Positions 10,301 through 42,959 of a stretch of 43,102 bases of DNA are shown one piece after another; the stretch's first letter is position 1, and every line of letters begins with the position of its first letter. The notes under the pieces were generated by a model. The model did not search any database and was not told where the DNA came from. It saw nothing but the letters and a program-made list of their open reading frames with translations. The stretch is taken from positions 1 to 43,102 of the IMG/VR virus record IMGVR_UViG_3300033182_000310. One strand, written 5' to 3'. The position numbers were made by a program, and so were the translations under genes. The stretch is from a virus.

Positions 10301-10759
10301 TATAAAGCATTATTTGGAAATAAAGCAGAGGCAGATTTGCAAGCACGTTTTAAAGCAGTAAAAAATCCTGACTTAGTTATTAATGATAATCAATTAAAGT
10401 CAGATATTATTAGCGCAGTAAATAGATTTTTTGCGCTAGAAAATTGGGATTTCGGAGAAAAGTTTTATTTCTCAGAATTGTCAAGTTATGTAATGAATCA
10501 GTTAAGCCCTGATCTAGTTACATTTGTTATTGTTCCTGTACAAGAAGACCAAGCATTTGGTTCGTTGTATGAAATTAAATCTGAAGCGGATGAAATCTTC
10601 ATTAGTTCTGCTTCAGTAAGTGATATTGACATTATTGATGCTGTTACAGCAAGTAGGTTAAAAGCATCAGGAGCAGTAGTAACAGAGTTAGAATCAACTA
10701 ACACTGGAATACAAAGTGGCTCATATTCTAGCTCAACTAGCGGAGGCTCAACTTACTAA
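7310..10759 (+). CDS. gp6: Baseplate wedge protein gp6 (enlarged, baseplate J-like)
   Basis: The first 130 residues are the conserved gp6 start: DWKRVYQSFRNADF, LRRTMISYLRENYPEDFNDY, SSEYLALIDLIAFLGQNISF and LNARENYLELAERRESVLRLA. In T4, gp6 dimers form the inner baseplate ring, and its sheath-proximal fold is shared with baseplate J proteins. The C-terminal 200 residues again look like gp6 (VNRFFALENWDFGEKFYFSELSSYVMNQLSP). At 1149 residues it is much longer than T4 gp6 (660); the added mass is mostly beta-rich central sequence, about residues 350-950. It ends in a Ser/Gly/Thr tail and its stop overlaps the next start (TAATG). It sits behind its own late motif and reads into the giant gene. 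Confidence 0.9.
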   Translation: MSSTDRQNRLLVAEDWKRVYQSFRNADFKSYDFDNLRRTMISYLRENYPEDFNDYLESSEYLALIDLIAFLGQNISFRIDLNARENYLELAERRESVLRLARLLSYNPKRNQAANGLLKIESVSTTEELVDSNNINLENQTIVWNDPSNPDWYEQYIRVLNAALPLNGTFGRPIKTETINGIPTQQYRFNSTNAEVPTYSFSKTVDGKSASFEVVSTDLTSDTIGEEAPFPGNNFAFVYREDGKGPASSNTGFFCHFRQGTLDQGTFNVTNPSTNQVVAIDARNVNNTDVWLYKLDSLGNEEELWTKVESVEGNNVIYNSLSKSIRNIYSVLTRIEDRVSLIFSDGTFGNLPQGNFRAYYRTSKNQRLIVTPDDMKGISVRIPYVSKSGKAETLVLTLELKYTVDNGTTSESNSSIKNSAPATYYTQNRMITAEDYQIGPLTTSQEIVKAKSVNRISSGISRYFDLIDATGKYSTTNLFATDGALYKEYKDYKTSFTFTTITDVEGVLVNTVEPILGNIKLRNYYLDRFPQLLVEDLGSTWNQVTEGTNISTGYLNNPNGVSVKVSSYTGSNMKYVKVNSLLKFEPPEGYHFLNGKLELGEPDFRGGTTYHWVKVINIVDNGTELQDDGTGPITFNDIIPTGAKLIEIRTALPSSLTADVEAQVTDQIFSYKTFGLRYSQTNGEWRLITENNLNAFDDFSIGKTGDVTNQQLDASWLLLFNTDGEKYTITYRTMRYIFESDTQVRFYYDSSDRIYNNKTGKIVKDKVKILSINTQPDSIQPFNNDYDWEITEEYRDQEGYVDSKKIQVSFYDDDDDSVVDNPDIFKDIIDEGTNPDTKLVFLKQITSTEGINDFVYVSKDEINVIVLTQKASIGALSQYDDEQLFYYVAEDLFERYNADTSTLSIETTYRARIGRDGLKFQYIHAADSNNRIDPSASNIIDTYLLTRGYDTQFRLWIDNELSSKPLPPSSDDLYTNYASELNKVKSLSDEIIYHPVKYKALFGNKAEADLQARFKAVKNPDLVINDNQLKSDIISAVNRFFALENWDFGEKFYFSELSSYVMNQLSPDLVTFVIVPVQEDQAFGSLYEIKSEADEIFISSASVSDIDIIDAVTASRLKASGAVVTELESTNTGIQSGSYSSSTSGGSTY

Positions 10760-25700: not shown

Positions 25701-26445
25701 TATACATTTTGCTGATAGTGCTGTAGTTGAAAGATTTGCTTGGAGACAGTTTAAGGATATGCTCAATAGAACGCACTATAAGCGTCTAGATGATGTATAT
25801 ACACTAGCAGAAGATTTAAACTGGTACGATAAGAGTATTGAACTAGTTGACGGTACAGGTTTACCAGAACCTGAATTTGATACTAGAAATCCTGGCGTAG
25901 TGTTTATTGAAGGCGAACGTATTGAGTTCTTTAATAGAAATGGAAACACGTTAAATCAAATTCGCAGAGGTACACTAGGTACAGGTGTAAAGGCAGTATA
26001 TGAAACAGGAAGCGAATTAGTAGATCAATCTTTAGATTCGACTATGCCATATAAAGATGAAACTGAAGTGATTACTGTTACTGCTGATGGTACAACAGCA
26101 ACATTTGAGTTACCGTTTAACACAGATTTATTTGATTTGCGTTTTGGTAGAGCAAGAGACTTAATAGAAGTATTTGTAGGCGGTAAACGTTTACATAAAA
26201 ATGAAATTGATGTCTTCAATAAAGATATTGATCAAGATTCACCAGAAGGTGACGAAGTTTATCCAGAAGAGTTTACTGTTAGTGGAAATGTATTAACATT
26301 AGCAGAAACTCCTAATGAAGGAATTAAAGTTAGCGTTATTAGAAAAATAGGAAAATACTGGAAAGAAAGTGGACAAAGGCTATCTGATAGCGATAATGAC
26401 GTAGCAAAATTCTTACGTGCCAAGACAACAGACTTACCACGATAA
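10759..26445 (+). CDS. Giant 5228-residue structural protein in the gp7 position (baseplate wedge/adhesion)
   Basis: One uninterrupted frame covers over a third of the window. It follows gp6 directly (TAATG), where T4-like phages place the wedge initiator gp7 (1032 residues in T4), so a baseplate role is inferred from position. The start looks structural (YFRTPVNTKFLSSTLDQLIQPGSVEKLNGYVGR, WDKFVNFREYYWLPNGP). A cupredoxin-like strand pair follows at about residues 185-225. Later come six carbohydrate-binding-like modules (W...Y..GDIV.Y.G.LY.A) between residues 225 and 2995, FG-GAP-like blades (FGSSVAVSPDGKFLAIGSP) around 2130-2280 and 3080-3260, two glycine-rich GY repeats (3635-3715, 4010-4090) and a C-terminal array of beta-sandwich repeats with VxVNGxxL motifs (about 4575-5200). 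No signal peptide or membrane segment was seen. It may combine wedge scaffold and surface-binding arms. The coding call is certain, the function is not. Confidence 0.75.
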   Translation: MAYDNNQQEFSLPGGENDRRRSSDHLPKYFRTPVNTKFLSSTLDQLIQPGSVEKLNGYVGRQHAKGYREGDFYVGDVSTDRKNYQLEPAAVIRDTLDNVNFYGDYNDYINQIRNLDGNVDDHSLLNQQEYYAWNPHIDWDKFVNFREYYWLPNGPQTIQVAGDKVEVESTYTVTVVDNGDNFAYMFTPNGLDQNPELTLYRGVTYRFEVDAIGNPISFRTKRQEAPLWKAKWYYSNGEQVLYNGSVYTSLGVHESGDTFDETLWERDTTFNLESQVSQQSVERGVVEVTLDDETPDLIYYLSDNDIYAGGLIRVKDPVEATFLNLENDVLGKKTYVTNKGWPLSNGMKIKFVGQVYPEIYEQGQWYVEGVGTGIRLISEEELNVPASFTDDLIVKFDTDGFDRLPYSEALGYPVNKDYITINRSSADGNLWSKYNRWFHRDVIELSETLNGSELELDQSARATRPIIEFESGLKIFNFGTKVKPNVDLVDTFTKDVFSTIEGSEGYNIDGVDLTNGMRVLFIADPDILVNGKIYEVKFIIHNNTRQITLVETDDTTPLENETVLCKQGDTYKGKMFWYNGTEWKLSQDKTTINQPPLFDVFDCEGNSFGNLTVYESSTFTGTKVFSYKQGSGLNDPELGFPLSYRSIENVGDIVFYFDLLSDSMTYCPTNSTPLEQITGLGFVRRYQSRTQYQTENGWKKAHTLSTQPVIRQYVNDNTRTFYPIDVYDNSGLLDDLWIRVYVNNSLMFENQDYTLTVDNTNRRIVTFTQTLEENAVIIIKTRSAAPKNDNGLYEIPSNLERNPLNEDITEFTLGEVNDHVGTIIEEIDTFYGAYPGVGNLRDLGLVSKYGKRIVKHSAPMNLSLYHMIDKDANIVKSLKYARREYGKFKRLFLQKAKDIGFTGDIKQHVDIILKEIVKDKTKTMPFYFSDMVPFGASVYNEIEIEEPEIEFFALTTPFTLNEVNDKAVSIYLNGIQLLSGRDYTFNDQGFVSITATKAVGDIIEIYEYETTNGSYVPPTPTKLGLYPKFEPSKYTDTTYLEPQEVIQGHDGSISIAFGDYRDDLLIELEYRIFNNIKMPYDDQLFNIYDFLPGADRNTGLSRAQIDHSMLSDFVNWVQLTEEDYTDHTFFDRENSFTFNYRGMSGINNTETVGFWRGIYKYAYDTDRPHTHPWEMLGFSIKPSWWEEQYGEAPYTSNNLLMWEDIEAGRIHQPGSLPVTNKKFIRRGLTSYLPVDEDGNLVSPLLSSYISIYKTTNIDSNFIYGDHSPVENAWRRSSEYPFALITSMLLNQPSRVLATAFDRIRQKRGLAGDIIYSSPNRQIRLTDIQFPNKVDADTRTYTLGLVNYIYDYLASNVTTTYESYIDNVRAINNQLGFKVGGYTSKDKFKLVLDSRTPLNKGNVFIPQENYKVVLNKSTPIKNVYYSGVMVEKQPDGFIIRGYSAEQPYFKYNKPIPTAGDPVVNIGGVSANFLYWDSNKNYSKGSIVEFQGSYYRVTEAHTSGSDFDNSKYAKLPQLPLQGGREATFSKRFSKKETVIFYGQILETIQEVVDFLLGYGNWLETQGFRFDFYSAQDEFVAEWKTSAKEFLFWTTQNWASGAVISLSPSAIGLKFKSEYATIDNIYDTFYGYSLLKADGKKLNPQNVSLTREEPTEFIIKPKNTEDGIFAVRLSLVQKEHVVLIDNRTVFGDVIYDQEPGYRQERIRVLGYRTGDWDGSINVPGFIFDNAKITEWESWQDYALGDLIKYKEFYYTAKNKIPGTETFNPKDWARLDEKPETGLIPNFEYKTNQFADFYDLDTDNFDIEQQKFAQHLIGYQNRDYLANIINDDVSQYKFYQGMIQDKGTRNVLDKLFDVLSSADKESLDFYEEWAIKVGQYGAAAGFEEVEYLIDESKMRLEPQSFELVTTVTGEETDLVYRILPYEAYLKSKGYTHAPFPTKEVNTTYTKNSGYVNPDDVDFIVSTYDSMLNIDFFECTFGSTVWVGNDGLEWNVYTHVRTEIEVEEIGTIDNGAIITIPTTKQPFEKDEIIGLYNVTGLPAGFYKISKVYNNKIEIITDATVEDATGLDGRITRLIDSRVSNVTEANNLLQTINEGLNKLWIDDVTDGNWNVVENANAFNQHQVITNLDKGDKHQYATAMTASKNNTILAVGSPTNGDGKVFIYTRAGNNGSYQLVQEIEPDDVLAKRYSSWYVPVLPGATTYNVNDIIVYNGSFYKCTYMFTASKTYEESLSSAWSRYSDNFIEIETPADTQHFGSSVAVSPDGKFLAIGSPSATEVKTLFKGDYIEESDYNEGDIVSYQNTLWRAQEDIEGKEASIQFNSFEAVPQVLIDLNLTDSDDESVPIILTGNYPFKEVTTDHILLRAPLDMYDGTEADDIVQTVWNRFSYAYQDNTVIEATEPFDGAIPQITSNLLTGDLTIKDKIDLVLFIEEANTVPLLGQTVEVPGGYGTVAYTFVPSDISSQSSSATIYVKDVNGVFGLAGSLTTTIGEYVGEYITAAPTDASIGLDGRYGGFWLIPLPTQDTYQVPSDINYDEGRGLIYKDVITEISNDSTDRFYYNILDYDSTAVSSYNTRNSEVITLTYEGLPGPGGIISGIFPDTRYVIRAPFELTERIRTSVDPITVTMFYNNMTNYNTGEWKDLSRIGLSLDDVNITQSFTADDLWDGYIDVELTKVNPATGEYIEPEEGLIVQDVTNLGTAEIVKYQRFNTRSIRIYVKDVSGTWAQGNLFGENREIRFLADVTNPQLVYRVDRVFGQIQARSLGLEEDGIGKLIVIDTGSTISLQRPDDADVTDEYYNILDGEYWFYDFQTDIQGIPREPSIPAENNNDWLQVFNLPAAASGTATTFDRQGMFSIYQRKGVGRFVKLNSYVVPEINEWKDEAETVNLGEQLQLGSDLRFSQNGDFYRLFVKATGDGTEQSPGKVYVIKYGTENEYFYNWDLGKDKEYKGEFVNTRSYYEHDIVYIDNKLYQANTNLTPDSITGILEFNLDDWTIVEGNRSYVGYVPNNLGINVHDSSQLLDDYDSTIIDQGSLIEFAKDFDSNLNGEVLVLSTTYKNQKINKIAVYRNNNGHYELSQTINAPSNDISFGTTLAISADGRMIAVGAPLDDNRNTDDGSVFIYTQRNRQFELTQTLRSADDDRAEMFGYKVQFDGNRLAIGCKGGDANIETSFSDGTTFDRGFTKFRSFTENAGLVKIYEKVGNDLLFGHKVDFDFEDVANEESVTEFGRNVIMSNNHVYVGLPNLRYNPQYSGTVVDYRLPDYKNVWNVLRSIKAPVDVNKIKRAILYNTKTNELVTYLDYLDVLQGKIPGPADQELSYKTYYDPAIYTSGVGVNVDETNSWGEDQVGKLWWDLTNAKFINAYQGNVIYSSNNWNKQFSDINTIDVYEWVKSEYLPSEWDKLSGSEQGISQGVTGTTRYGDDAYVTKRVYDNVTKTFTSYFYYWVINKTTLPNVETRTYTARQVSDLIVDPAGSGYKFISFISDTEFALYNCENLIKDKDVALSVQYWTIDDQSINIHNQYQLVTEGLESSKPSRDIEAKWFDSLVGFDAANRPVPAPELSTKEKYGILNSPRQGWFVNRIEAVKQVISKINSVLINTLIIDDKDISRLVEKEDPPLFSSNRYDRTVDNYIDLQFVGVAKARQAVLTPTIENGKITAVTITDTGRGYLTPPTVEILGTGQNAVVTTEINNLGQITNVTIENDGENYESNTRLYVRRYTVLVNADETLNGKWALYERNVETKEWIRVVSQAYDVSLYWDYADWYETGYNTFTEIDHLIDRSYNLTNINDDIGDIIKIQNVGSGGWLLLEKINEVENSDYSVNYRTVGRQNGTIQFKDTLYDNDKSLVGFDTTTYDVLTFDSLPSTETRIILEVIRDNVFVDDLALEYNNLFFASLRYVFSEQSYVDWAFKTSFIKAKHNVGNLEQKLNFQNDNLANYEDYIKEVKPYKSKIREYLSSYENLDQSQSIVTDFDLPPRSVNGEIYPHVVKVVNNQLLEQNSDLTQYPTKHWADNSSFKVVDIKIADKGSRYTTAPVIEIVGGGGTGATAVASLGRNGVISAIKVVTKGSGYLTSPEVNIVGSYETDGSPAKAIAILGETPVRTLHTVTKFDRVSGTYEFINLQTTETFTTPGNRLSFYLKWPMDLRNSRVKVFLDDNEVLGGRYTYRNNLDTSKGYDRYLGEIEFFEPPVGDQELRVEYYKDIKMLNAQDRINLAYEPGEDQYGKTLGQLMDGVDYGGVEVRSFEFGGTAGWDSNPWFAQGWDIYDTTYEDLTFVNKEVELTFNSVVEIKQNTILVQEDTGATGRVIEDVNGTKVKLESTFNSVFDVNYPIKKYVTLRIPLGDTVTKGETVVQDFTNASGIAAEDSNGTRLIVITDITTEFSALENFEYYVDSTEDADTNPIYAASLDEYLVLPTPLEVGTEYNIYRLGYNSNNLLINNDRIDDANWDGSTVGTENNPLARMLPIIGNSEETISLIDNDIPSIPEGAESYVVLIIRKNTSDGSFLPDPDTFDTIVQGGDIAYQSATGLRAEDITIDGDGFVTQTTSKGPEEIVPGQVLDTLDIKVYERTAGGVSNITSRNYIGDGSTKTFDLNSPIVKDENLFVKVGFNIVKNYTIDYQDQSITFDLAPQAGKKVSLVSLGNSAETILDIDEYTGDGATGEFLTNVRWDINIEAFVTVDGVVTDVELFESDATYDYPDNVVIKFATPPSNNAVINIMLVSNEESNPQYSQVSIDTIIADGSTTNFDITNAPFDQKPLSYYTVVTVNDRVLSPGYSQEYVIENSQREYQLNLVQIPAASLNYYDVQVFINGRQLEYLQEFRFEGSAQFDPNLPTELQPGSTVILERGIGDNGDTVKIFVMADNDYSFGYFDVDNNFVSTPNTLYLNEPYNEDDVIKVYKFSNHNAQALERYTVEVTEQTETTPGTDRYFDFKLLQRGLIKLRSPAIDAQYVWVAVNGVLLSPSVHYSITDNRNYVKLTTEPVEGDKIQIIHFADSAVVERFAWRQFKDMLNRTHYKRLDDVYTLAEDLNWYDKSIELVDGTGLPEPEFDTRNPGVVFIEGERIEFFNRNGNTLNQIRRGTLGTGVKAVYETGSELVDQSLDSTMPYKDETEVITVTADGTTATFELPFNTDLFDLRFGRARDLIEVFVGGKRLHKNEIDVFNKDIDQDSPEGDEVYPEEFTVSGNVLTLAETPNEGIKVSVIRKIGKYWKESGQRLSDSDNDVAKFLRAKTTDLPR

Positions 26446-32549: not shown

Positions 32550-33539
32550 ATGGCAGTTAGTCCAGGCGATAGTATAACAGCAGCGGCGTATAACACGCTA
32601 CAAGGCAGAATAGAAAATATTCTCGGCACCGGTTCTGGACAAGATGGTTACGGTCAAACCTTATCAAGTGCTTCAGTAACTCCACCTAGTTCACCAGCAG
32701 CTGGCGACGGCGCCACAGTAGAAGCAGAACAAATGCAAGAACTGTGGGACGACATGAATGCTGCGTATAAACACCAAACAGGTAACGATCTTTCTATTAG
32801 AAGAATTGTAGATGGCGATGTTATAGGTGCTGATGCTACAGGTACAGGTCTTACGTATGATTTGCTAGGTAGCTATACATTTGACAGTGAAGATACTACT
32901 GGCGGTTTTAACGACTACTTAATAGCAATGTCTACTGTAGAAGCACAACGCTTTAATATAGCAGCAGCTCAAGCAACTGTTGCCGACGCAACAACTGACA
33001 CAAGAACAACAACTTGGAACGGTACAATAAATATGACGTTTACTTGTACGTTTACTAGTGCTGATCATAGACGACACTTTTTTAATTCAGGCGGCGAGAT
33101 CCGTTTAGAAGGTAGTTTAAGTAGTGGATCAGGCGCAAAAGATACTGACTGGGCAACTATGCTATCAAATACTAGTGCTATTAGATTTGGATATAATTAT
33201 ACAAATGCTAGTAGTGGCACAGGCTCTGCTATTGGTAACTATGATCTAACATCAACGTACCAACAAATTTTTACTAAATCAGGTTCTGGTGCGTATGTTG
33301 AAAACTTATATAAAGTTGAAGCAAAAGAAAATAGTACTACTGTAATTGAATTTAAAGTTACACTAGCAGATAATGACGTAGGTGACCGAGATCTTACTGC
33401 TGGCCCTCCACCATACGGCGCACTAGTTGACGAAGACATCACCGGCGATATTACATTTACACTAGGTTTTAGAAGAGCAAGCGGCTCGTATGTTTCAGTC
33501 AATCAGCCTAGTTTCTCTGTTACAGACACATTCGAATAA
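32550..33539 (+). CDS. Probable virion adhesin or fibre-tip protein
   Basis: This 329-residue protein is not recognised as a named T4 product. Residues 1-100 are helical and polar (GDSITAAAYNTLQGRIENILGTGSGQDGYGQ, MQELWDDMNAAYKHQTG), resembling the N-terminal part of phage decoration or fibre-associated proteins. Residues 140-329 are beta-rich with FFNSGGEIRLEGSLSSGSGAKDTDWATML, a motif I associate with structural proteins of marine myoviruses. It follows the fibre genes and has the only perfect TATAAATA on the plus strand in an intergenic position, so strong late expression and a virion location are likely. An adhesin role is inferred from context only. The gene ends immediately before the sigma70-type promoter region. 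Confidence 0.6.
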   Translation: MAVSPGDSITAAAYNTLQGRIENILGTGSGQDGYGQTLSSASVTPPSSPAAGDGATVEAEQMQELWDDMNAAYKHQTGNDLSIRRIVDGDVIGADATGTGLTYDLLGSYTFDSEDTTGGFNDYLIAMSTVEAQRFNIAAAQATVADATTDTRTTTWNGTINMTFTCTFTSADHRRHFFNSGGEIRLEGSLSSGSGAKDTDWATMLSNTSAIRFGYNYTNASSGTGSAIGNYDLTSTYQQIFTKSGSGAYVENLYKVEAKENSTTVIEFKVTLADNDVGDRDLTAGPPPYGALVDEDITGDITFTLGFRRASGSYVSVNQPSFSVTDTFE

Positions 33540-33586
33540 TCACTTGACATAGACCAATTATTCATATATAATACTAGTATGAATAA
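33534..33586. repeat. Three evenly spaced GAATAA half-sites around the cassette promoter (operator-like)
   Basis: GAATAAT (33534-33540), ATTATTC (33557-33563) and GAATAA (33581-33586) are alternating copies about 23 bp apart. The second and third form a perfect 9-bp inverted repeat, TTATTCATA (33558-33566) and TATGAATAA (33578-33586), and its 11-base loop holds the -10 box. The first copy overlaps the stop codon of the upstream gene. An AT-rich background makes chance possible. Confidence 0.45.
33544..33572 (+). promoter_or_regulatory. Consensus sigma70 promoter of the glycosyltransferase/radical SAM cassette
   Basis: TTGACA (33544-33549) and TATAAT (33567-33572) are both perfect consensus hexamers with a 17-bp spacer. 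Initiation near 33579 leaves a leader of about 16 bases containing AAGAGG before the ATG at 33596. No late motif is present, so the cassette should be read by unmodified host polymerase early in infection. Confidence 0.85.
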
Positions 33587-33595
33587 GAGGTTAGT

Positions 33596-33949
33596 ATGGA
33601 CGAACGATTACAAAAAGCACTAGATTTTTCCAACTATATGGTCACGCTAAACAATCAAAAGCGTGTTCTTAAAGAAAGATACAGAGAACAAACTGTTTAT
33701 TATTACCAAGGCGGACAGTTTACAGTAACAAAAGAACTTATTACATTTGTTAGTATGCTTGTTGAACAAGGGAACGACGAAGATATCGTACTTGTTGATG
33801 ACAACGAAACACCAATTATGGTAAAAGACTTAACAGACTTTCAAGCAGAAATACTAAACACGTACTTTACCGCAGCAAACGAATATCACGCTGAGTACGA
33901 AAAACTTCGTAAAAATAGAAGTGTGGAGAAATTAGTAGAATATGAGTAA
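33596..33949 (+). CDS. Small conserved phage protein of unknown function
   Basis: The 117-residue product is acidic, with helices at both ends (MDERLQKALDFSNYMVTLNNQKRVLKE; the last 40 residues through AEYEKLRKN) around a YYYQGGQFTVTKELITFV strand. Similar small proteins are familiar in T4-like marine phages, but I know no function. There is no catalytic motif or membrane segment. It is the first gene after the consensus sigma70 promoter and overlaps the next gene by eight bases, so it is the leading product of the cassette. It could be regulatory or a partner of the enzymes downstream; nothing in the sequence decides this. Confidence 0.65.
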   Translation: MDERLQKALDFSNYMVTLNNQKRVLKERYREQTVYYYQGGQFTVTKELITFVSMLVEQGNDEDIVLVDDNETPIMVKDLTDFQAEILNTYFTAANEYHAEYEKLRKNRSVEKLVEYE

Positions 33950-34832
33950 AGGCGTATTAGTCTTTGCTCGTAATAATGCTCAAATTGACTACTGTAAGCA
34001 AGCACTATTTCTAGCAAAGCGTGTAAAACGATTTTTAAATTTACCTACTACTATTGTAACAGATAGTACAGAGTATCTATTGACAGTATTTCCAGAAGCA
34101 ACTGAAGTTTTTGACAAAATCATTAGCATTGTATGGAAAGAAGAAGATCTAACAGAAAATGCTACACTATCAAATACAGAAAGTCATTTTATTAGAACGT
34201 TTTATGACGGAACGTTAATAGAAAAGAAATTAGAATTTAAAAATGAAACTCGTACTCTAGCATATAATTTAACTCCATACGACGAAACATTGTTATTAGA
34301 TACAGACGTAGTAATTTGTAATGATATATTTAAAAACTGTTTTGGTCAAGATCATGATTTTTTAATTTATAAAAACGCATACGAATTAGTTGAAATAGAT
34401 AGAGAAGGAATATTTGAAAGAGTTTCAGATACTAGTGTACAATTTTATTGGGCTACGTGTGTATTTTTTAGAAAGACATCAACTAATAAGATTTTCTTTG
34501 ACTTATTACAGCATATACAAGAAAACTGGAAACATTATGATAGAATGTTCCAAATTAATTCTCCTTACTATCGTAACGACCATAGTTTTAGCATAGCAAT
34601 TCATATTATGAACGGTTATCAACTAGGCGAGTTTGAAAAAGAAATGCCAGGTAAGTTATATTTTACAACAGATAAAAGTCTATTATGGGAAATTAATGAT
34701 ACGTCGTTGCTAATGATGTTAGAAAAAGAACATCATAGAGGAGAGTATACATTGATGCGTATAAAAGATGCCAATGTTCATGCTATGAATAAGTTTAGTT
34801 TAAATAGGTGTATTGATGAATCAGGCGAATAA
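33942..34832 (+). CDS. GT-A type glycosyltransferase (DTD motif)
   Basis: The 296-residue protein has the outline of a small GT-A glycosyltransferase related to GT8-like families. An N-terminal Rossmann-type strand (GVLVFARNNAQIDYCKQALFLAKRV) and LPTTIVTDS are followed by YDETLLLDTDVVICND, in which Asp120 and Asp122 form the metal and sugar-nucleotide binding DxD motif. HDFLIYKN and an RNDHSFSIAIHIMNGY helix lie in the acceptor-side half. It should transfer a sugar from a nucleotide-sugar donor; donor and acceptor cannot be read. The following gene is a shorter paralogue. It overlaps the upstream gene by eight bases and the downstream one by 17, so all are coupled. No membrane anchor is visible. 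Confidence 0.75.
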   Translation: MSKGVLVFARNNAQIDYCKQALFLAKRVKRFLNLPTTIVTDSTEYLLTVFPEATEVFDKIISIVWKEEDLTENATLSNTESHFIRTFYDGTLIEKKLEFKNETRTLAYNLTPYDETLLLDTDVVICNDIFKNCFGQDHDFLIYKNAYELVEIDREGIFERVSDTSVQFYWATCVFFRKTSTNKIFFDLLQHIQENWKHYDRMFQINSPYYRNDHSFSIAIHIMNGYQLGEFEKEMPGKLYFTTDKSLLWEINDTSLLMMLEKEHHRGEYTLMRIKDANVHAMNKFSLNRCIDESGE

Positions 34833-35649
34833 AGGATTTGTAATTTTTGCGGATGGCAAAGAATACGTAAAACAAGCATATTTGTGTGCGATGAGCCTAA
34901 AAGCATCTAATAATAAGTATCCTGTAAGTATTATTACTAGCGATAATGTACTCGACAAGTATAAATGGGCTTTTGATCAGATAATTGACATTCCTTGGTA
35001 CGAAAAAGTAGAGTCAAGATTTCAAACAGAACATAGATGGAAAGTGTATCACGCATCGCCATATGAAGAAACTATTGTTTTAGATGCGGATGTTCTTATA
35101 TTACATGATTTAGAATATTTTTGGAGAATAATGTCTAACTATGATTTGTATTTTCCAACAAGGGTATTTACATACCGTAAGGATCTAGTAACTAGTTCGT
35201 ATTATCGTAAAGCATTTGTGGCAAATAAGTTACCAAATGTATATAATACTTTACATTTCTTTAAAAAGAACGACAAATGTAAAGAATATTACACATGGAT
35301 AGAACTTATATCAAATAACTGGGAGTTATTTTATGGACATTTCTGTAAAGAATATTTTCCTAAAATGCCTAGTATGGATGTAACTTGTGCTATAGCAGTA
35401 AAAATTATGGACATAGATACAGAAATTACTAATGTTAGACAAGACTTACCTATGATAGTACATATGAAGTCGGCTATACAAGGCTGGAAAGGCGGCACTA
35501 CTAGATGGCAAAATCGTGTAGGTGTATATCTTACAGAAGATTTAAAATTAAAAATAGGTAATCATTTACAAGATACTGTATTTCATTATACAGAAAATGA
35601 TTTTGTTACAGAAGATATTATAGGAAAGTATGAACAATGTCTGAAATGA
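34816..35649 (+). CDS. GT-A type glycosyltransferase (DAD motif), paralogue of the preceding gene
   Basis: This 277-residue enzyme resembles its upstream neighbour: NKGFVIFADGKEYVKQAYLCAMSLK, YPVSIITSDN and YEETIVLDADVLILHDLEYFW align with the same elements there, with Asp90 and Asp92 as the DxD motif. The pair probably arose by duplication. A TTG precedes the ATG by one codon; the ATG at 34816 is preferred because AGGTG at 34806-34810 is well placed. The C-terminal half has VTCAIAVKIMD and a HMKSAIQGWKGG segment, near where GT8-type enzymes carry their terminal metal-binding histidine. Substrate unknown. It overlaps the next gene by 13 bases. Confidence 0.75.
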   Translation: MNQANKGFVIFADGKEYVKQAYLCAMSLKASNNKYPVSIITSDNVLDKYKWAFDQIIDIPWYEKVESRFQTEHRWKVYHASPYEETIVLDADVLILHDLEYFWRIMSNYDLYFPTRVFTYRKDLVTSSYYRKAFVANKLPNVYNTLHFFKKNDKCKEYYTWIELISNNWELFYGHFCKEYFPKMPSMDVTCAIAVKIMDIDTEITNVRQDLPMIVHMKSAIQGWKGGTTRWQNRVGVYLTEDLKLKIGNHLQDTVFHYTENDFVTEDIIGKYEQCLK

Positions 35650-36212
35650 TATACGCTATTTTTAATAAAGACACAGGAGATGTGTTAAGTGTTACAAATG
35701 AAGTCAGTGACACTGACAGCTATATTCCTGTAGCCGTATCACAAGTAAAGTCAATTTTAGATGGCAAAGAACCTATAAGAAATTATATGGTACAATATAA
35801 TACAAAGACTAAAACACTAGACTTTGTATCAAGATTTGAACACGTATTTGACGCAGTTGATGTTAATGAGTTTATATACGAAATGCCAGAAGAAGAATTA
35901 GAAGACCCTGACATTTTACTTATACAAGATATCCCAAATACTTGCTGGAAGATAAAAGTAGGCGATAATTTAAAGAAAAATATTAGGGCAAAAGGTGTAA
36001 GTTTAAACGCTAATATACTTTTTAGTATTACTGCTAAAAGCGATCCTAATATTTTATATCGTACATTTTTTGTTGACTTTGGTAAAACAGTTAATGATAA
36101 TTATTTTATAGTTCCATTTGCTATGCCGTTTGAAGAAACTAATGAAGTAGTTAGCGCATATACTTCAAAAAGATTTGATACTTATCAGTATAAAAGGATT
36201 TTAAATGACTAA
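35637..36212 (+). CDS. Unknown cassette protein, 191 residues
   Basis: I do not recognise this protein. The N-terminal 75 residues (MIYAIFNKDTGDVLSVTNEV, IRNYMVQYNTKTKTLDFVSR) look like a small beta domain of a type seen in phage hypothetical proteins. The C-terminal half (DNLKKNIRAKGVSLNANILFSIT, YRTFFVDFGKT, YFIVPFAMP) is also beta-rich. No catalytic motif, signal or membrane segment is present. It lies between two glycosyltransferase genes, overlapping both (13 and eight bases), so it is made with them. It could be an acceptor protein, an adaptor or a small structural component. The evidence is only its position. Confidence 0.6.
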   Translation: MSEMIYAIFNKDTGDVLSVTNEVSDTDSYIPVAVSQVKSILDGKEPIRNYMVQYNTKTKTLDFVSRFEHVFDAVDVNEFIYEMPEEELEDPDILLIQDIPNTCWKIKVGDNLKKNIRAKGVSLNANILFSITAKSDPNILYRTFFVDFGKTVNDNYFIVPFAMPFEETNEVVSAYTSKRFDTYQYKRILND

Positions 36213-37101
36213 AATAAGAGTAGTAGATCAGGATATTATTTTCCTATCGTACGATGAACCTAACGCAGAAAAAAACTATGCTGACTTGTGTCAGAAAGTT
36301 CCTTGGGCAAAGCGGGTACATGGTGTACACGGTAGCGACGCTGCACACAAAGCCTGTGCTGATCTAAGTGAAACAGAGTATTTTATTACTGTAGATGCTG
36401 ATAATATTATTGATCCAAACTTCTTAAATGTAGAAGTTGATATTGACGAGTTGGGTGTAACACCAGAACACGTATTTTCATGGTGTGGCAAAGTTCATGT
36501 CAATGGACTAATGTACGGCAACGGCGGTCTTAAAATGTGGACACGTAAATTTGTACACAATATGCGTACACACGAAAACTCAGTTGATGGCGACGACAAA
36601 GGTTTAGTAGAGTTTTGTTTTGATGACAAGTATTATCAGTTTAACGAAAATTATAGCACAAGTTATACAAACGCAACACCTTGGCAGGCTTGGAGAGCAG
36701 GATTCCGTGAAGGTGTTAAGATGTGCTTAGACCAAGGTACTAAAGTAAATGATCTACGTAAAACATGGTGGCAAAACTTTGATCGTTTACGAGTGTGGTG
36801 TAGTGTAGGGGCTGATGTAGAAAATGGTCTATGGAGCATACATGGTGCTCGCGCAGGTCTTATTAAAACAATGTTAACAGATTGGAACCATGCTGAAGTC
36901 AGAGACTTTGAATGGTTAAACAAGCAATGGGAACAAAATGATGTCGAAGAAGGTGAAGACCTATTAGGTGCGATTGAAGGACAGGGCGAATTATTACGAT
37001 CGGAGCTCGGTATTGAAATAGCAGAACTTGATGCTAACAGCAGTCATTTTTTTAAAGCGTTATATCGTAATACACCAAGGATAATTAGAAAACGTAAATG
37101 A
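36205..37101 (+). CDS. GT-A type glycosyltransferase (DAD motif), second family
   Basis: The 298-residue product starts with VVDQDIIFLSYDEPNAEKNYADL and AKRVHGVHGSDAAHKACADL, then YFITVDADNIIDPNF, where Asp64 and Asp66 are the DxD motif of a GT2-like GT-A fold. Later WCGKVHVNGLMYGNGGLKMWTRKF and WQAWRAGFREGVKM are Trp-rich and probably line the acceptor site. It is not an obvious paralogue of the two upstream enzymes, but its first 45 residues match the partial gene at the right edge of the window. It should transfer a sugar to an unknown acceptor. It overlaps the preceding gene by eight bases and the next by four (ATGA). Confidence 0.72.
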   Translation: MTKIRVVDQDIIFLSYDEPNAEKNYADLCQKVPWAKRVHGVHGSDAAHKACADLSETEYFITVDADNIIDPNFLNVEVDIDELGVTPEHVFSWCGKVHVNGLMYGNGGLKMWTRKFVHNMRTHENSVDGDDKGLVEFCFDDKYYQFNENYSTSYTNATPWQAWRAGFREGVKMCLDQGTKVNDLRKTWWQNFDRLRVWCSVGADVENGLWSIHGARAGLIKTMLTDWNHAEVRDFEWLNKQWEQNDVEEGEDLLGAIEGQGELLRSELGIEIAELDANSSHFFKALYRNTPRIIRKRK

Positions 37102-38477
37102 ACGACGAATTAGAAAATATTAAAAAAATAATTCCTATTACTAATGCTGAAATTAGTCCTACATTTTGTATGGCTAAATGGCATCATACTACAATATACT
37201 TACAAACAGGCGAAACGCATAGTTGTTATCATCCTGCTCCTCATACTATACCGCTTGACGAGTTAAAAGATAATCCAAGTGCGTTACACAACACAGGCGA
37301 AAAAAAGAAACAACGTAAATTAATGATGGAAGGAAGACAACCAGAAGGTTGTTCTTATTGTTGGCGTATTGAAGCAATGGGACAAAATTACGTCAGCGAT
37401 AGACATATTAAAACAGCGAGTATATACACTCCTGAACGACTACAAGAAATAAAAGAAAATGGATACGAATACAATGTCAACCCTGAATATATCGAAATTA
37501 GCTTCTCGAATGAATGTAACTTTAAGTGCGGCTACTGTCACCCAAAAGCCTCAAGCCGCTTCTGGAACGAAATCAAACAACACGGCCCGTACAGTACAAG
37601 CACCGACCACCGGCAAGACATAGACTGGTTTAAAGTTTATCATAGAGAAGAAGAAAATCCCTATGTTGACGCATGGTGGAAATGGTGGCCTGAAGTAAGT
37701 AAGACACTTAACATACTGCGCATTACAGGTGGCGAACCTTTATTACACAAATCAACATGGGAACTATTTGAGCGTTTAGATAAAGATCCTAAGCCACACA
37801 TTCAAATAGAACTTAACAGTAACCTAGGTGTAAAACACAGCCTTGTACAAAAACTTGCTAATACCGTAAGACGTTTAAAAGACGAAAACAAGATTCGTAG
37901 TTTTAAATTATATACAAGTATTGACACATGGACTGAACGTGCTGAATATACACGCACAGGTTTAGATATTAATCTTTGGGAAAAGAACTTAGATTACTAC
38001 CTAAGTAATACAGGATGGCCTGTAACGTTTATGATTACATTTAACCTGTTCAGTGTTACAAGTTTTACAACTTTATTAGAAAAGATCTTAGAATGGCGTG
38101 AAAAATATAATTCAACTGCGAACGAAACACAATGGCAACGTGTAAGATTCGACACACCGCATTTAAAAGAACCTAGTATATTTGATATGAATATTCTTCC
38201 TAAAGACGAATTCATGCCTTATATGCGCGAGCATCTATCATTTATAAAAGACAATTTAGATGATAACGATCGTACTAAGTTTACAACCCTAGAATATGAA
38301 AAATTTAAACGTGTTGTAGATTATATGGAGTCTACGTTTTACGAAGATAAAAAATTAAGCGAAGCACGTAAAAATTTTTACAACTGGTTTACGGAATACG
38401 ACAGCAGAAGAAATAGCGATATGATTGCTACGTTTCCGGAGTTAAAAGACTTTATGGAACTATGTAAGAATGTCTAA
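37098..38477 (+). CDS. Radical SAM enzyme with cysteine-rich N-terminal domain (1)
   Basis: The 459-residue protein has the radical SAM signature CNFKCGYC (Cys140, Cys144, Cys147) for a 4Fe-4S cluster and the SAM-binding GGEP motif (RITGGEPLLHKSTW). Before it, residues 20-95 carry extra cysteines (Cys24, Cys43, Cys85, Cys88; EGCSYCWR), a twitch or SPASM-like auxiliary cluster region placed at the N-terminus instead of the usual C-terminus. Such N-terminal-twitch radical SAM proteins occur in phages and some bacterial surface-modification loci. The radical SAM barrel continues through HIQIELNSNL and FMITFNLFSVTSF. Substrate unknown: a peptide or sugar modification is possible. It is coupled to the glycosyltransferase upstream (ATGA) and overlaps a second radical SAM gene by eight bases. 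Confidence 0.85.
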   Translation: MNDELENIKKIIPITNAEISPTFCMAKWHHTTIYLQTGETHSCYHPAPHTIPLDELKDNPSALHNTGEKKKQRKLMMEGRQPEGCSYCWRIEAMGQNYVSDRHIKTASIYTPERLQEIKENGYEYNVNPEYIEISFSNECNFKCGYCHPKASSRFWNEIKQHGPYSTSTDHRQDIDWFKVYHREEENPYVDAWWKWWPEVSKTLNILRITGGEPLLHKSTWELFERLDKDPKPHIQIELNSNLGVKHSLVQKLANTVRRLKDENKIRSFKLYTSIDTWTERAEYTRTGLDINLWEKNLDYYLSNTGWPVTFMITFNLFSVTSFTTLLEKILEWREKYNSTANETQWQRVRFDTPHLKEPSIFDMNILPKDEFMPYMREHLSFIKDNLDDNDRTKFTTLEYEKFKRVVDYMESTFYEDKKLSEARKNFYNWFTEYDSRRNSDMIATFPELKDFMELCKNV

Positions 38478-39627
38478 CACATTTTGTATTTTACCTTGGA
38501 TCCACGTTTATGCTAACGCAGACGGAACAGTTCATCCTTGCTGTATAGGCGACTATAAATATCCTCTTGGTAATTTACAAAAAGAAAGTTTAGAACAAGT
38601 TTGGAATAACGAAAACTATAAACGCCTACGCCGCAATATGTTAGAAGGTAAGGAATGTAAAGAATGTACTGCGTGTTATTCTGCTGAACAATACGGTTCA
38701 AGTTTTAGAACACATTCTAATAAACAGTTTGAAAAATATATTCCAGTTAAAGATACTACAAATGCTGACGGAAGTTTAGACGAAATGACTCTGCGTTATT
38801 TAGATGTACGTTGGAGTAATATTTGTAATTTAAAATGTAGAACTTGTAGTCCTACATATAGTTCTAGTATAGCAAAAGAGGAAGGACGAGATAAGATTTA
38901 TATCTTTGCTGGAGGCGAAAGCAACGATACTTTATACGAACAGTTTGAGCAACACTTTGATACTATAGAAGAATTTTATTTTGCTGGTGGCGAGCCGTTG
39001 CTAATGGATACCCATTATAAAATACTTAATCGACTAATTGATAGCGGAAAGACTGATGTAAAATTAAGATACAACACTAACTTGACTTCATTAAAATATA
39101 AAGGTGTAAGTATAACAGACTACTGGAGAAACTTTTCTAACATACAAGTTTTTGCTAGTTTAGATCATTACGGAGAACGTGCTGAATATATTAGAGAAGG
39201 CACAAATTGGAAAACAGTAGAAGATAATATTCGTAAAATTAAATATGAAGCGCCACACGTAGACTTACAGGTTAGTACTGTAGTTAGTGTTTTTAATGTT
39301 TCTACGTTAACAGACTTTTTAGATTATTTGCTGGAAGATTTGTTTGATATTAAAAAGTTTAGCCCGCAGTTTTATAATATTATAAATCCTGAGTATTATA
39401 CATTTGATGTACTTAAAGATACTCAAAGTATAATTGATAACCTAAAAGAACGATCTTATAATAAACATATAGATAATCAACTTAATAATGTTATAAACTC
39501 GTTATCTAACTCTCAATATAATGATAATTTATTTAAAGAGTTTAGATATGTAACTGATATGTATGACATTAAGAGAAAGAAAAACTTTTCAAAAACATTT
39601 CCTGAATTACAGAGCATGTTTTTGTAA
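38470..39627 (+). CDS. Radical SAM enzyme with N-terminal SPASM/twitch-like domain (2)
   Basis: This 385-residue protein is related to the one upstream. Its N-terminal domain begins FCILPWIHVYANADGTVHPCC and continues with PLGNLQKESLEQVW and CKECTACY; Cys6, Cys24/25, Cys63, Cys66 and Cys69 look like ligands of an auxiliary iron-sulphur cluster of SPASM/twitch type. The radical SAM cluster motif is CNLKCRTC (Cys119, Cys123, Cys126) and the SAM-binding motif is AGGEPLL. The order twitch then radical SAM matches a family described in phages. No precursor peptide is evident within the cassette. Its last codons overlap, tail to tail, the gene on the opposite strand by 21 bases. Confidence 0.85.
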   Translation: MSNTFCILPWIHVYANADGTVHPCCIGDYKYPLGNLQKESLEQVWNNENYKRLRRNMLEGKECKECTACYSAEQYGSSFRTHSNKQFEKYIPVKDTTNADGSLDEMTLRYLDVRWSNICNLKCRTCSPTYSSSIAKEEGRDKIYIFAGGESNDTLYEQFEQHFDTIEEFYFAGGEPLLMDTHYKILNRLIDSGKTDVKLRYNTNLTSLKYKGVSITDYWRNFSNIQVFASLDHYGERAEYIREGTNWKTVEDNIRKIKYEAPHVDLQVSTVVSVFNVSTLTDFLDYLLEDLFDIKKFSPQFYNIINPEYYTFDVLKDTQSIIDNLKERSYNKHIDNQLNNVINSLSNSQYNDNLFKEFRYVTDMYDIKRKKNFSKTFPELQSMFL

Positions 39628-39630
39628 TTC
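39604..39630. terminator. Inverted repeat at convergent gene ends, possible bidirectional terminator
   Basis: GAATTACA (39604-39611) and TGTAATTC (39623-39630) form a perfect 8-bp stem with an 11-base loop, followed on the plus strand by TGTTTT. It spans the tail-to-tail stop codons of the radical SAM and SGNH genes. The stem is AT-rich and the U-run short, so termination is plausible but not strong. Confidence 0.35.
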
Positions 39631-40479
39631 TGTTTTAACCTCAGTTAATCTTTTTAGTTCTAATTGATCTTTTTTATCTACTTGATAAATTGCGTAAGAG
39701 GTAGAATGTTTTTTATTTTCTTCTAATATAAAATTAATGTAATTTTTTTGAACTCTAGAAGCTTCGTTATATGTTTCTGGTCTAAAATTATGACTGGTAA
39801 AGATTCTTTCTAAATACTTGTAATGTTCCATAGGACTAGGATGGCCATCAGAATATTGACCACCCCATATATTCTTTTCCTTTAACAATTTATTTCCGTA
39901 AACATTGTTTTCCCAAAGTACGTCAAAAAAACTAGGTTGAATAGTATCTAAAGTTTCGCTATATTTTTTACACAATTCCTCGTGTATTAATTTATATTTA
40001 GGTTCTATGCCTTTACTTGTTTGACTTTGATCAATAGTAGTTTGTATATTACACATTGAAAGCATATGATATTTACATTTTTTATTATCTAATAAGTTCT
40101 TAGTTAAATGAATAGACGCAAAATCTCTAATCATATAACCAACAGGATCAGCCCATTTTCTTACAAACGTTTCGTCATAGTCGCCTTGTGTAAAAATATT
40201 TCCTGGAGTAACCCAATCACCTTTAACCCAACGATCTTCACGAGCAACGTTAGTCCATGTTATCATAACTAAATCGTCTTCGTCAAAGCTATATGTAGCA
40301 TCTGCTTGAGCAACCATATTACTAATGTACTGATTACCGGCACCACTTCTGCCATAATTATAGTAAGGAATATTTAAGTCATACGCAACAAACTCAGGCC
40401 AAGTAGTCCAATGGTATCTTGTAAAACTACAACCAAATGCGAATAAACGTTTAGGTCTTTTAGTTGCTAACTCTGTCAT
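39607..40479 (-). CDS. SGNH/GDSL-type hydrolase
   Basis: The 290-residue product has the blocks of an SGNH hydrolase: GCSFT near the N-terminus (nucleophile Ser18), GRSGAGNQ (block II Gly), ITWTNVAREDRW (block III Asn) and SDGHPSPMEH near residue 211 (the Asp/His pair). The fold acts as esterase, acetylhydrolase or, in related sugar proteins, O-acetyltransferase; the substrate cannot be read. In phage context it may remove or add acyl groups on surface glycans. No signal peptide is present. It overlaps the upstream minus-strand gene by 20 bases, so the two are a transcriptional unit read towards the convergent cassette. The ribosome binding site is weak, so it may depend on coupling. Confidence 0.78.
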   Translation of the reverse strand: MTELATKRPKRLFAFGCSFTRYHWTTWPEFVAYDLNIPYYNYGRSGAGNQYISNMVAQADATYSFDEDDLVMITWTNVAREDRWVKGDWVTPGNIFTQGDYDETFVRKWADPVGYMIRDFASIHLTKNLLDNKKCKYHMLSMCNIQTTIDQSQTSKGIEPKYKLIHEELCKKYSETLDTIQPSFFDVLWENNVYGNKLLKEKNIWGGQYSDGHPSPMEHYKYLERIFTSHNFRPETYNEASRVQKNYINFILEENKKHSTSYAIYQVDKKDQLELKRLTEVKTELQKHAL

Positions 40480-41683
40480 TTAATTTTTCCAAAAATTTTG
40501 CTAATTTTTCAGTTGAAAGTTCTGTGGATAACATCTTTTTATAATTGTGCATTAATAGTTCTTTATTTTTATAACGCCATTCAACACGGTTCTGTCTCGA
40601 TAACCCATTAAGAAATTTACAAGTTTCTGTTAACGATTGGATTAATTTTTTATATCTTTTGATAGGATCTTCTTCGTCGTCAAAACTTAAATCAAACCAT
40701 TCATCATATGTTTTATATCCTAAATTACTTAGGTACTTATTAGCATGAGTTTGCCCCCAAATTACAAAAGGTTGAAACTGTGCCATTGGCTTAAAAGATT
40801 TTTCACTATAAAATAAACTAGTTGAATGTTGATCATCGACTAGTGTTTCATTTACTATTTGAAAAATAGTTCTTGCGTGTATATGCTCATATGGAGTGTC
40901 AATAGCCCAGTTTTTACTAAAGTCCTGTCGATCAACTACTAATGGTAAACTTTTAGCCCATTGTTTAATTTGTTTATCTGTATATCCTTGTGAGTATAAT
41001 AAGTCCTTGTATTGATCAAGTGTGCGTACTCTGTCATGGCTTATAAGACCTTTATCTGCTATTTCACTTTGACATAACATAAAAGTACCAAGGGTTCGAT
41101 AGTCTCTGTTAACACGACTTAAACTAGAAAAGTATTTGTCGTCGTGTAAGTCAACACATAGTCCAAATGTTCTATTATACTGATCTATTGGTCGTTGACG
41201 ACCATAACGTTGATCATAAGTAAGCACTTGTTCAAACGAAGGATACGAAAACACGTTAATAGGTTCTACACCTTTTTCTTTAGAATATTTGTCAATATTG
41301 TTTTCGTCTAATAAATTAGCAGAAACGTAGATAATCATTTTAGGATCTACTTTATATTTTTCACAGTTATAATATAATAAATCAAAAAATGGAAATTCGT
41401 ATATAGGACTAAATCCTTCTGTACTAGCGTCAAATACAAAAAATATTTTGCCTTTTTGTAATTGAAATAACATATGGGGAGCTAAGAATTGAAATATATC
41501 TGTAGTAGGTTTCCACTCGGGGTATTGTAAAAGGCCGTGTACATACTCCATCTCTCTTAACCAAAGAAATGAATTTTCGTATTGTGTATTACAAAGTAAG
41601 TGATGTAAAAGAACTGTAAAAGTAGTATCGGGACAGTTCATTAGGTGTGTCTCTGTAATTAGAGCGTTCTGAATCTTCTTCAC
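40460..41683 (-). CDS. Unknown protein, possibly glycan-related
   Basis: This gene encodes about 407 residues from a GTG at 41681-41683; a TTG five codons earlier (41698) is possible. The GTG is preferred because GAGG lies five bases upstream and because the late promoter at 41712-41719 would leave almost no leader for the TTG. Features seen are FFVFDASTEGFSPIYEFPFF, VDPKMIIYVSANLLDE and near the C-terminus FYSEKSFKPMAQFQPFVIWGQTHANKYLSNLGYKTYDEWFD. That last region resembles the sugar-nucleotide-binding C-terminal part of some GT-B-like or exostosin-like proteins seen in phage and marine genomes, but no diagnostic motif settles it. It is co-transcribed with the SGNH hydrolase downstream. Function is not established. 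Confidence 0.6.
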   Translation of the reverse strand: MKKIQNALITETHLMNCPDTTFTVLLHHLLCNTQYENSFLWLREMEYVHGLLQYPEWKPTTDIFQFLAPHMLFQLQKGKIFFVFDASTEGFSPIYEFPFFDLLYYNCEKYKVDPKMIIYVSANLLDENNIDKYSKEKGVEPINVFSYPSFEQVLTYDQRYGRQRPIDQYNRTFGLCVDLHDDKYFSSLSRVNRDYRTLGTFMLCQSEIADKGLISHDRVRTLDQYKDLLYSQGYTDKQIKQWAKSLPLVVDRQDFSKNWAIDTPYEHIHARTIFQIVNETLVDDQHSTSLFYSEKSFKPMAQFQPFVIWGQTHANKYLSNLGYKTYDEWFDLSFDDEEDPIKRYKKLIQSLTETCKFLNGLSRQNRVEWRYKNKELLMHNYKKMLSTELSTEKLAKFLEKLNDRVSN

Positions 41684-41697
41684 GTAAGCCTCAATCA

Positions 41698-41705
41698 ATT
41701 AAATA
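41698..41705 (+). promoter_or_regulatory. Probable T4-type late promoter for the dehydrogenase (ATTAAATA)
   Basis: ATTAAATA ends 24 bases before the ATG at 41730, the same distance as the other late motifs, with AGGAG at 41719-41723 between. It differs from the consensus in the first and second bases. Confidence 0.45.
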
Positions 41706-41711
41706 CGTACA

Positions 41712-41719
41712 TATTTATA
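41712..41719 (-). promoter_or_regulatory. Consensus T4 late promoter on the minus strand (TATAAATA)
   Basis: On the minus strand the octamer is exactly TATAAATA. Initiation about six bases further on would give a leader of about 20 bases before the GTG start at 41683, including GAGG. It lies within 15 bases of the divergent plus-strand late motif. Confidence 0.7.
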
Positions 41720-41729
41720 GGAGTATTAT

Positions 41730-42959
41730 ATGAACATAGGATTTATTGGTGTAGGCAAACTTGGTATGCCATGTGCTGAAGCAATAGCACAAAAAGGCCA
41801 TATAGTAGAAGGATATGATGTAGCACCAGTAACAAGCGAATATGTTGGCGTTGTTGAATCTATTGAAGGTGTAGTAAAAGATAAAGACATTGTGTTTATA
41901 GCAGTGCCTACTCCACACGATCCGGACTATGATGGCAGAGCACCTACTGCTCATTTAGATCCAAAAGACTTTTCTTATCATATAGTAGAAGAAGTATTAA
42001 CAGAAGCAAACAAGTATATGAATAAAGATCAATTACTTGTGCTTATTAGTACAGTACTTCCTGGAACGACTCGTAGACAATTTGTTCAATTAATCAATAA
42101 TACTCGTTTTGTTTATAATCCTTACTTGATTGCTATGGGTAGTGTAGCATGGGATATGGTTAATCCTGAAATGGTAATGATTGGTACAGATGATGGCACT
42201 GAAACAGGCGATGCTAAACAACTTGTAGACTTCTACAAAACTGTAATGGAAAACGATCCACGTTATGTTGTTGGAACTTGGGACGAGTGCGAATGTATTA
42301 AGGTATTCTATAACACATTTATTAGTGCTAAGATTGGTCTTGTTAACATGATACAAGATGTTGCTGAAAAGCAAGGTAATATTAATGTAGACATAGTAAC
42401 AGAAGCATTGGCACATAGTACAATGCGTATCATGGGACCACAGTACATGACAGCAGGCATGGGTGATGGCGGTGCTTGTCATCCACGTGATAACATTGCT
42501 TTACGTTATATGGCTAAGAATTTAGATTTAGGTTATGATTTATTTGACAGTATTATGAATGCTCGAGAAGTACAAGCAAAGAATCTTGCTAACGAACTAG
42601 TCCAACATGCTGATGAAAATGCTATGAAAATTTATATTCACGGAAAAGCATATAAACCTGGTGTTGAATATTTAGATGGTAGTTATAGTTTGTTAATAGG
42701 TCATTATTGTAAAGAGTTAGGCTATGACGTAACTTATGTCGATCCTAAAACAGGAGACAATAATCATCCTACAGAACCTTGTGTAATGCTTATGGCGCAT
42801 AGTGCTAGTACAACATACAAGTATATGAAAGAAGAAGGTGATAGTACTGATTTACTATATTGTGTTATACCAGCAGGTAGTATTGTAGTTGATCCTTGGC
42901 GTAAATTTACATCAAATGCTAGTAAAGTAATTTATTATGGAAATACTAGAACTAGGTAG
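41730..42959 (+). CDS. UDP-glucose/GDP-mannose dehydrogenase family protein
   Basis: The 409-residue protein has an N-terminal Rossmann domain with the dinucleotide motif GVGKLG (Gly7, Gly9, Gly12), followed by VFIAVPTPHD and LISTVLPGTTRRQF, both typical of nucleotide-sugar dehydrogenases. The central helix has KVFYNTFISAKIGLVNMIQDVAE. The catalytic cysteine is probably Cys250 in GDGGACHPRDN; family members usually read GGSCFPKD, so Ser-Cys-Phe-Pro-Lys has become Ala-Cys-His-Pro-Arg. The enzyme should oxidise a UDP- or GDP-sugar to a uronic acid with NAD, feeding glycosyltransferases. Start ATG is preceded by AGGAG (41719-41723). It follows a divergent junction and precedes another glycosyltransferase-like gene. 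Confidence 0.85.
   Translation: MNIGFIGVGKLGMPCAEAIAQKGHIVEGYDVAPVTSEYVGVVESIEGVVKDKDIVFIAVPTPHDPDYDGRAPTAHLDPKDFSYHIVEEVLTEANKYMNKDQLLVLISTVLPGTTRRQFVQLINNTRFVYNPYLIAMGSVAWDMVNPEMVMIGTDDGTETGDAKQLVDFYKTVMENDPRYVVGTWDECECIKVFYNTFISAKIGLVNMIQDVAEKQGNINVDIVTEALAHSTMRIMGPQYMTAGMGDGGACHPRDNIALRYMAKNLDLGYDLFDSIMNAREVQAKNLANELVQHADENAMKIYIHGKAYKPGVEYLDGSYSLLIGHYCKELGYDVTYVDPKTGDNNHPTEPCVMLMAHSASTTYKYMKEEGDSTDLLYCVIPAGSIVVDPWRKFTSNASKVIYYGNTRTR

Follow-up and report, generated by a model that had tools for sequence, protein, structure and literature searches.

Why would a phage keep an operon of sugar-transferring enzymes, headed by a promoter of the early type, among the late genes for its tail fibres? 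The question is raised by the IMG/VR virus record IMGVR_UViG_3300033182_000310, a 43.1-kb stretch (43,102 nucleotides; hereafter the window) that encodes a T4-type late sigma factor, baseplate wedge and hub genes, a giant protein of 5228 residues and four tail-fibre or adhesin genes. At 33596–39627, behind the adhesins, seven open reading frames run head to tail with overlaps of 8, 20, 13, 8, 4 and 8 nt: gene a, the predicted glycosyltransferases GT1 and GT2, a protein of 191 residues (U191), a third predicted transferase (GT3) and two radical S-adenosylmethionine (SAM) enzymes, rS1 and rS2. The answer that we favour, tentatively, is that this is the core glycan-modifying operon in the host-recognition region of a large and mostly uncultured group of T4-like phages, and that it probably alters the host surface. 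Such an operon suggests that the phage needs a sugar modification early in infection.

A fixed gene core behind the tail adhesins

The same block was retrieved from three independent anchors (rS1, GT1 and GT3), and gene order was counted in 93 distinct viral loci with enough flanking sequence, marine and freshwater, the freshwater branch being assigned by sample and sequence group. Genes a, GT1 and GT2 lie ahead of GT3 in all 93 loci, with gene a first in every one; U191 is present in 91, and the exact order a–GT1–GT2–U191–GT3, with median overlaps of 4–13 nt, likewise holds in 91. The block adjoins the upstream adhesin in 85/93 loci. What follows GT3 varies: a radical SAM gene in 51/93, a second, shorter GT3-like gene in 35/93 (mostly freshwater) and nothing further in the remaining 7, where the block ends. 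Directly after GT3 the freshwater branch has no radical SAM gene. Downstream, radical SAM copies range from 0 to 6 per fetched flank and are mixed with proteins of 412 and 290 residues and a UDP-glucose dehydrogenase. Because the radical SAM enzymes vary in number and presence, the pathway core consists of the three transferases and gene a, with the radical SAMs as accessories, rather than of one fixed five-enzyme pathway.

Mean pairwise identity is highest in the block for GT3 (66%) and lowest for U191 (27%), its fastest-evolving member; the adhesins stand at 36–50%. A tblastn search of 50,697 phage records, HTVC008M included, returned no match for GT1, GT3, gene a or U191, one weak metagenomic match for GT2, and weak matches for rS1 and rS2, mainly in Vibrio phages K566/K567. 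The latter (L117) have at least three twitch-like radical SAM genes clustered with several unknowns and a PagP-like gene. In divergent phage contigs from bacterial metagenome-assembled genome (MAG) bins the order a–GT1–GT2–x–GT3–radical SAM is kept, and in several of them a small open reading frame of ∼70–95 residues stands in place of U191. The MAG contigs with the cassette (L218, L220, L223, L229, L230, L275 and L276) were binned as Verrucomicrobia, Pelagibacter, Rhodobacteraceae, Rickettsiales and Betaproteobacteria; they look like phage contigs, so that the bins are probably mixed.

All seven genes lie on the plus strand. Gene a (33596–33949, 117 residues) has no credible Pfam or PHROG match, near-noise Pfam matches such as HSF being disregarded. 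GT1 (33942–34832, 296 residues) has no Pfam match of its own; profile comparison makes it a paralog of GT2 (hhalign probability 99.7, E 4e-26). GT2 (34813–35649, 278 residues, or somewhat shorter if it starts at the ATG at 34816, which reduces its overlap with GT1 from 20 to 17 nt) matches Mannosyl_trans3 (PF11051) at 24.7 bits, just over the Pfam cut-off of 22, as do 5 of 25 relatives. GT3 (36205–37101, 298 residues) gives only weak Glycos_transf_2 matches by sequence, and neither its profile nor that of GT1 found anything significant among PDB sequences. Its AlphaFold2 model (predicted local distance difference test (pLDDT) score 89, predicted template modelling score 0.89) has a predicted GT-A domain at residues 1–160, with Foldseek probabilities of ∼1 to several glycosyltransferases (VIA Z 9.7, root-mean-square deviation 3.4 over 138 residues); the predicted fold would suit nucleotidyltransferases too. 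Each enzyme has a DxD motif (LDTD, 120–122, in GT1; LDAD, 91–93, in GT2; VDAD, 64–66, in GT3), and both aspartates are invariant in alignments of 24–26 relatives. Motifs and predicted structure thus support the view that all three are GT-A-like glycosyltransferases, with sugar transfer as their predicted activity.

U191 (35637–36212) is predicted to combine a small N-terminal beta domain with a C-terminal Ig/FnIII-like sandwich (AlphaFold2 pLDDT 90). A fold search of the PDB gave no match with E <0.001, the best (VIA Z 5.4 over 81 residues) being too weak for naming a family; three metagenomic phage proteins were matched in BFVD. The twitch domain-containing enzyme rS1 (37098–38477, 459 residues), to which 388 stretches in viral contigs are related, and the twitch/SPASM enzyme rS2 (38470–39627, 385 residues; N-terminal SPASM domain PF13186 at residues 6–69) score 313.9 and 374 bits against NF033640, far above its curated cut-off of 170, with the CxxxCxxC motifs CNFKCGYC and CNLKCRTC and the N-terminal auxiliary cysteines in place. 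They differ from that family at large in occurring as multiple tandem copies in these phages.

Known DNA modification pathways also include glycosyltransferases and radical SAM enzymes, and the cassette might accordingly protect phage DNA from host nucleases. We regard this as very unlikely: the cassette is embedded in the tail-fibre region, and Pfam and PHROG comparisons found no nucleotide-metabolism gene in it.

The seven-gene layout had been described in an earlier note made from the letters of the window alone, and it holds, including an overlap range of 4–17 nt if GT2 starts at its ATG. So do its account of three DxD enzymes, two of them paralogous, and two radical SAM proteins, and its placing of the block between tail-fibre genes upstream and a minus-strand pair with a late-type box downstream. 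Its expectation that the genes would be conserved together is borne out for the first five and only in part for the radical SAMs. Its remark that it knew of no described phage pathway of this composition needs correcting, comparable host-recognition clusters having been published for pelagimyophages: besides tail fibres and glycosyltransferases these contain UDP-glucose dehydrogenase and cassettes of radical SAM genes, and they are interpreted as modifying the surface against coinfection (PMC7029224). Both sets belong to T4-like aquatic phages and both occupy a post-baseplate region with these same kinds of gene; the pelagimyophage clusters are described as hypervariable, however, whereas the present one has a fixed five-gene core with its own promoter (PMC7029224).

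The sigma70-type promoter and its inverted repeat

The promoter (33544–33572, plus strand) is of the sigma70 type and agrees with the consensus at 12 of 12 positions: TTGACA at 33544–33549 and TATAAT at 33567–33572, 17 nt apart. It scored best of the 50 sites found in scanning 9 kb, a length in which chance alone would yield ∼42 promoter-like sites of whatever score. Among 106 distinct regions ahead of gene a, 79 contain a box with at least 10 of 12 matches, where shuffles lead one to expect ∼4; the box in the window is therefore beyond chance, and in relatives its spacer is nearly always 17 nt. A scan for late-type boxes (ATAAATA or CTAAATA) found none ahead of gene a in the window. The single sigma70 promoter proposed by the earlier note is thus well founded. 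What that note missed is the hairpin around it.

The 5′ arm of an inverted repeat (33552–33567, plus strand) lies in the spacer between the −35 and −10 elements, outside transcripts from this promoter. The 3′ arm (33577–33592, plus strand) holds the GAGG ribosome-binding site of gene a, and from the position of the −10 element the operon's own transcript is expected to start at ∼33579, inside this arm. Late transcripts reading in from upstream, presumably from the tail adhesin gene adh329 (32550–33539, plus strand; late-type box TATAAATA at 32515), would carry both arms. Given this placing of the arms, such transcripts should hide the ribosome-binding site of gene a, and those from its own promoter should leave it free.

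The repeat in the window has a predicted free energy of −13.2 (z −3.3). Over 80 loci, read-through RNA with both arms averages a predicted −13.1 kcal/mol (mean z −3.56), and the own transcript −0.4. When arms were exchanged among 26 non-redundant loci, pairing fell from −10.1 to −5.4 kcal/mol (z −10.7). A control set of 40 further sigma70 promoters from these phages gave −4.8 vs −4.7 (z −0.5), and no comparable hairpins were seen at the remaining sigma70 promoters of the loci or at those of three longer records. The arms thus differ strongly among loci yet keep their complementarity. Pairing reaches 86.5% of cells in the freshwater set but 34–56% when the structure is slid, and 7 of 19 pairs show double changes.

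A repeat centred on the −10 region could also be read as an operator in the DNA, bound by a regulator of the early promoter; such an operator would accommodate four freshwater loci that keep the repeat without a sigma70 box, in which no transcript would escape an RNA lock and be translated. We think it improbable, since a protein site of fixed sequence sits poorly with arms that vary so widely while remaining complementary, and with the G-U pairs that make up 142 of 1216 predicted pairs (∼12%): these are expected of RNA and speak for it. A still less probable alternative makes the repeat a transcription terminator of the tail-fibre operon that overlaps the early promoter. A T-rich stretch does follow 17 of 80 hairpins; its absence from the other 63 led us to set this explanation aside, and moreover the stems consist mostly of A-U pairs and no terminator was called at this place in the window.

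The RNA lock that we prefer has precedents. In T4, hairpins hide the ribosome-binding sites of e, soc, 49 and I-TevI in early read-through RNA, and the late promoters of gene e lie within the 5′ arm (PMC3014915). The cassette resembles gene e in that the promoter is located in the DNA of the 5′ arm, so that only its own transcripts would free the ribosome-binding site (PMC3014915). The timing is reversed, however: in T4 the promoter inside is late and early read-through is silenced, whereas here it is early-type and late read-through would be silenced. Judged from sequence and predicted folding, the layout would be a mirror image of the gene e lock and not a member of it. Fold-back protection against outside transcription is also found in the transposase genes of IS10 and IS50, where again the ribosome-binding site is hidden in transcripts entering from outside; there a mobile element guards against chance activation, whereas the cassette would have a timing device in a phage late region.

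Two variations on promoter architecture were encountered alongside. On MAG contigs L275 (near 2500) and L220 (near 215) the start codon of gene a comes just 6 nt past the −10 box, so that the mRNA would be almost leaderless. A minus-strand gene for a DUF2201 VWA-like protein of ∼394 residues in freshwater loci such as L126, L130, L144, L165 and L184 has a GC-rich hairpin wholly inside the −35/−10 spacer (TTGACA CCTCC-nnnn-GGAGG TGT TATAAT); its arms vary (CCTCC, GGACC, CCACC, CCGCC), with complementarity kept in 12 loci.

Host surface or phage protein as acceptor

On the preferred reading the host's sigma70 RNA polymerase would read the operon early. Transcripts from its own promoter, beginning past the 5′ arm, would be translated, with the overlapping downstream genes probably translationally coupled; since the promoter sits inside the repeat, RNA reading through later from the tail-fibre genes would fold and silence the cassette. 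GT1, GT2 and GT3 would attach sugars, the likeliest acceptor being a host surface glycan, after which the infected cell and its debris would stop binding further phages of the same kind. The radical SAMs, UDP-glucose dehydrogenase and other downstream genes would be lineage-specific additions. We favour the host surface only slightly, and chiefly on account of the early promoter and its predicted lock; the linkage to adhesins and, by analogy, the published interpretation of the pelagimyophage clusters (PMC7029224) also point that way.

Several observations weigh against this reading. A good sigma70 box is missing from 27 of the 106 upstream regions, and 8 of the 25 distinct box-less regions examined carry a late-type box at promoter distance instead, as only one of 80 loci with the sigma70 box does; in a further marine lineage GTAAATA lies 8–14 nt from the ATG of gene a. 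Early-only expression is therefore not universal, and timing is changed in at least some lineages: of the early expression first proposed, the early-type promoter stands and its generality does not. The four freshwater loci that keep the hairpin and have lost the sigma70 box (L144, L151, L128 and L156) are not explained by a read-through lock, and the hairpin may have a second role. The predicted fold pairs at least three of the four nucleotides of the ribosome-binding site in 55 of 79 loci; in that of the window no more than two of the four Shine–Dalgarno bases are paired, so that its lock may be weaker than those of relatives. RNAalifold found no consensus pairs in the marine hairpins, because MAFFT cannot align arms with a shifting register; the alignment-free exchange of arms was used in its place. 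As to the acceptor, the high conservation of GT3 across marine and freshwater loci would fit a conserved phage acceptor equally well, and the bacterial homologs of the twitch radical SAMs sit among mixed metabolic genes, not in glycan clusters.

A close rival, somewhat less probable in our estimation and likewise raised in the earlier note, is that the enzymes modify a phage protein, such as a tail adhesin from the neighbouring genes, U191 or gene a. The position of the block directly behind the adhesins suits it, as does the fact that GT3 is better conserved than they are, a hint that its acceptor is conserved. The identity of U191 tracks that of adh329 beyond that of adh499 (partial correlation 0.49, given with no significance test and possibly inflated by saturation), and some lineages apparently use late-type boxes. 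Most lineages, however, have an early-type promoter and a predicted lock on late translation, which an enzyme modifying virions would not need, and no candidate acceptor repeat was found in this clade. A doubtful variant would join the two ideas: the promoter-in-hairpin switch would silence an early operon in a late cluster, and the operon would be an undescribed, widespread pathway by which the phage's own adhesin or U191 receives glycan and radical-SAM modifications.

Modification of a phage protein also gains from two jumbo myophages, Sinorhizobium phage Phosso and Agrobacterium phage Atu_ph07, the best matches (59% and 54%) to the 204-residue product of g204, at 26468 in the window. At the same genome position both have several radical SAM genes, including peptide-maturase-like ones, and a protein whose tail reads CHxSCHASCHxS; their baseplate and fibre genes are related as well. 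They differ in that their radical SAMs belong to other families and that they have this CHxS-tailed protein and no homologs of GT1, GT2 or GT3. The tailed protein, of ∼300 residues (Phosso, L115:22318–23238; Atu_ph07, L116:23086–23976), ends in conserved His-Xaa-Ser repeats (...YCHTSCHASCHSSRSRR), and its gene lies right after a tail-fibre gene, among at least four radical SAM/SPASM genes and one that is cupin-like; that cluster may serve to modify a phage protein at the peptide level. No C-terminal HxS repeat of the HxsABCD kind was found in the viral loci of the present clade, and the cassette has no Pfam match to the GtrA flippase or the GtrB bactoprenol glucosyltransferase of gtrABC systems.

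Flanking genes and what the arrangement would mean

Beyond rS2, three variable accessory genes complete the region: a minus-strand protein of 290 residues (39607–40479), SGNH hydrolase-like by motif only (GCSFT, GRSGAGN) and with no family or Pfam match; the minus-strand 412-residue protein m412 (40460–41698), with the late-type box TATAAATA at 41719 heading this pair; and a plus-strand member of the UDP-glucose/GDP-mannose dehydrogenase family (41730–42959; PF00984; phrog_9148, E 1e-99). The divergent m412 and dehydrogenase genes are only 31 bp apart (41699–41729), with late-like AAATA boxes pointing both ways. Late-type boxes also stand 27–35 nt ahead of the genes at 1139, 7310, 26468, 31020 and 32550. 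The 5228-residue virion protein (10759–26445) comes after the baseplate wedge gene, a place taken in Phosso and Atu_ph07 by a protein of ∼4500 residues. The pelagimyophage cluster lies between VrlC and gp14; by position the 5228-residue protein stands where HTVC008M has VrlC, and the window ends before any gp14.

The enzyme families were known already, as was the general idea of a host-recognition region rich in glycosyltransferases, and as many as 12 radical SAM genes have been reported from one environmental genome of the T4-like kind (PMC5332604). In the open-access papers searched, the combination of radical SAM, glycosyltransferase and phage led to the pelagimyophage paper and to no description of a pathway, and neither the fixed core of this clade nor the placing of an early promoter in a hairpin was found. 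If our reading is right, the phage can house an early operon among its late tail-fibre genes and yet keep strong late transcripts from activating it, and does so by placing the promoter within the very hairpin that has to be escaped. A fixed five-gene core can now be named for phages of both sea and lake samples, and what had been loosely described as a hypervariable glycosyltransferase region would become a testable pathway tied to host recognition, in which the choice of acceptor lies between the host surface and a phage protein.

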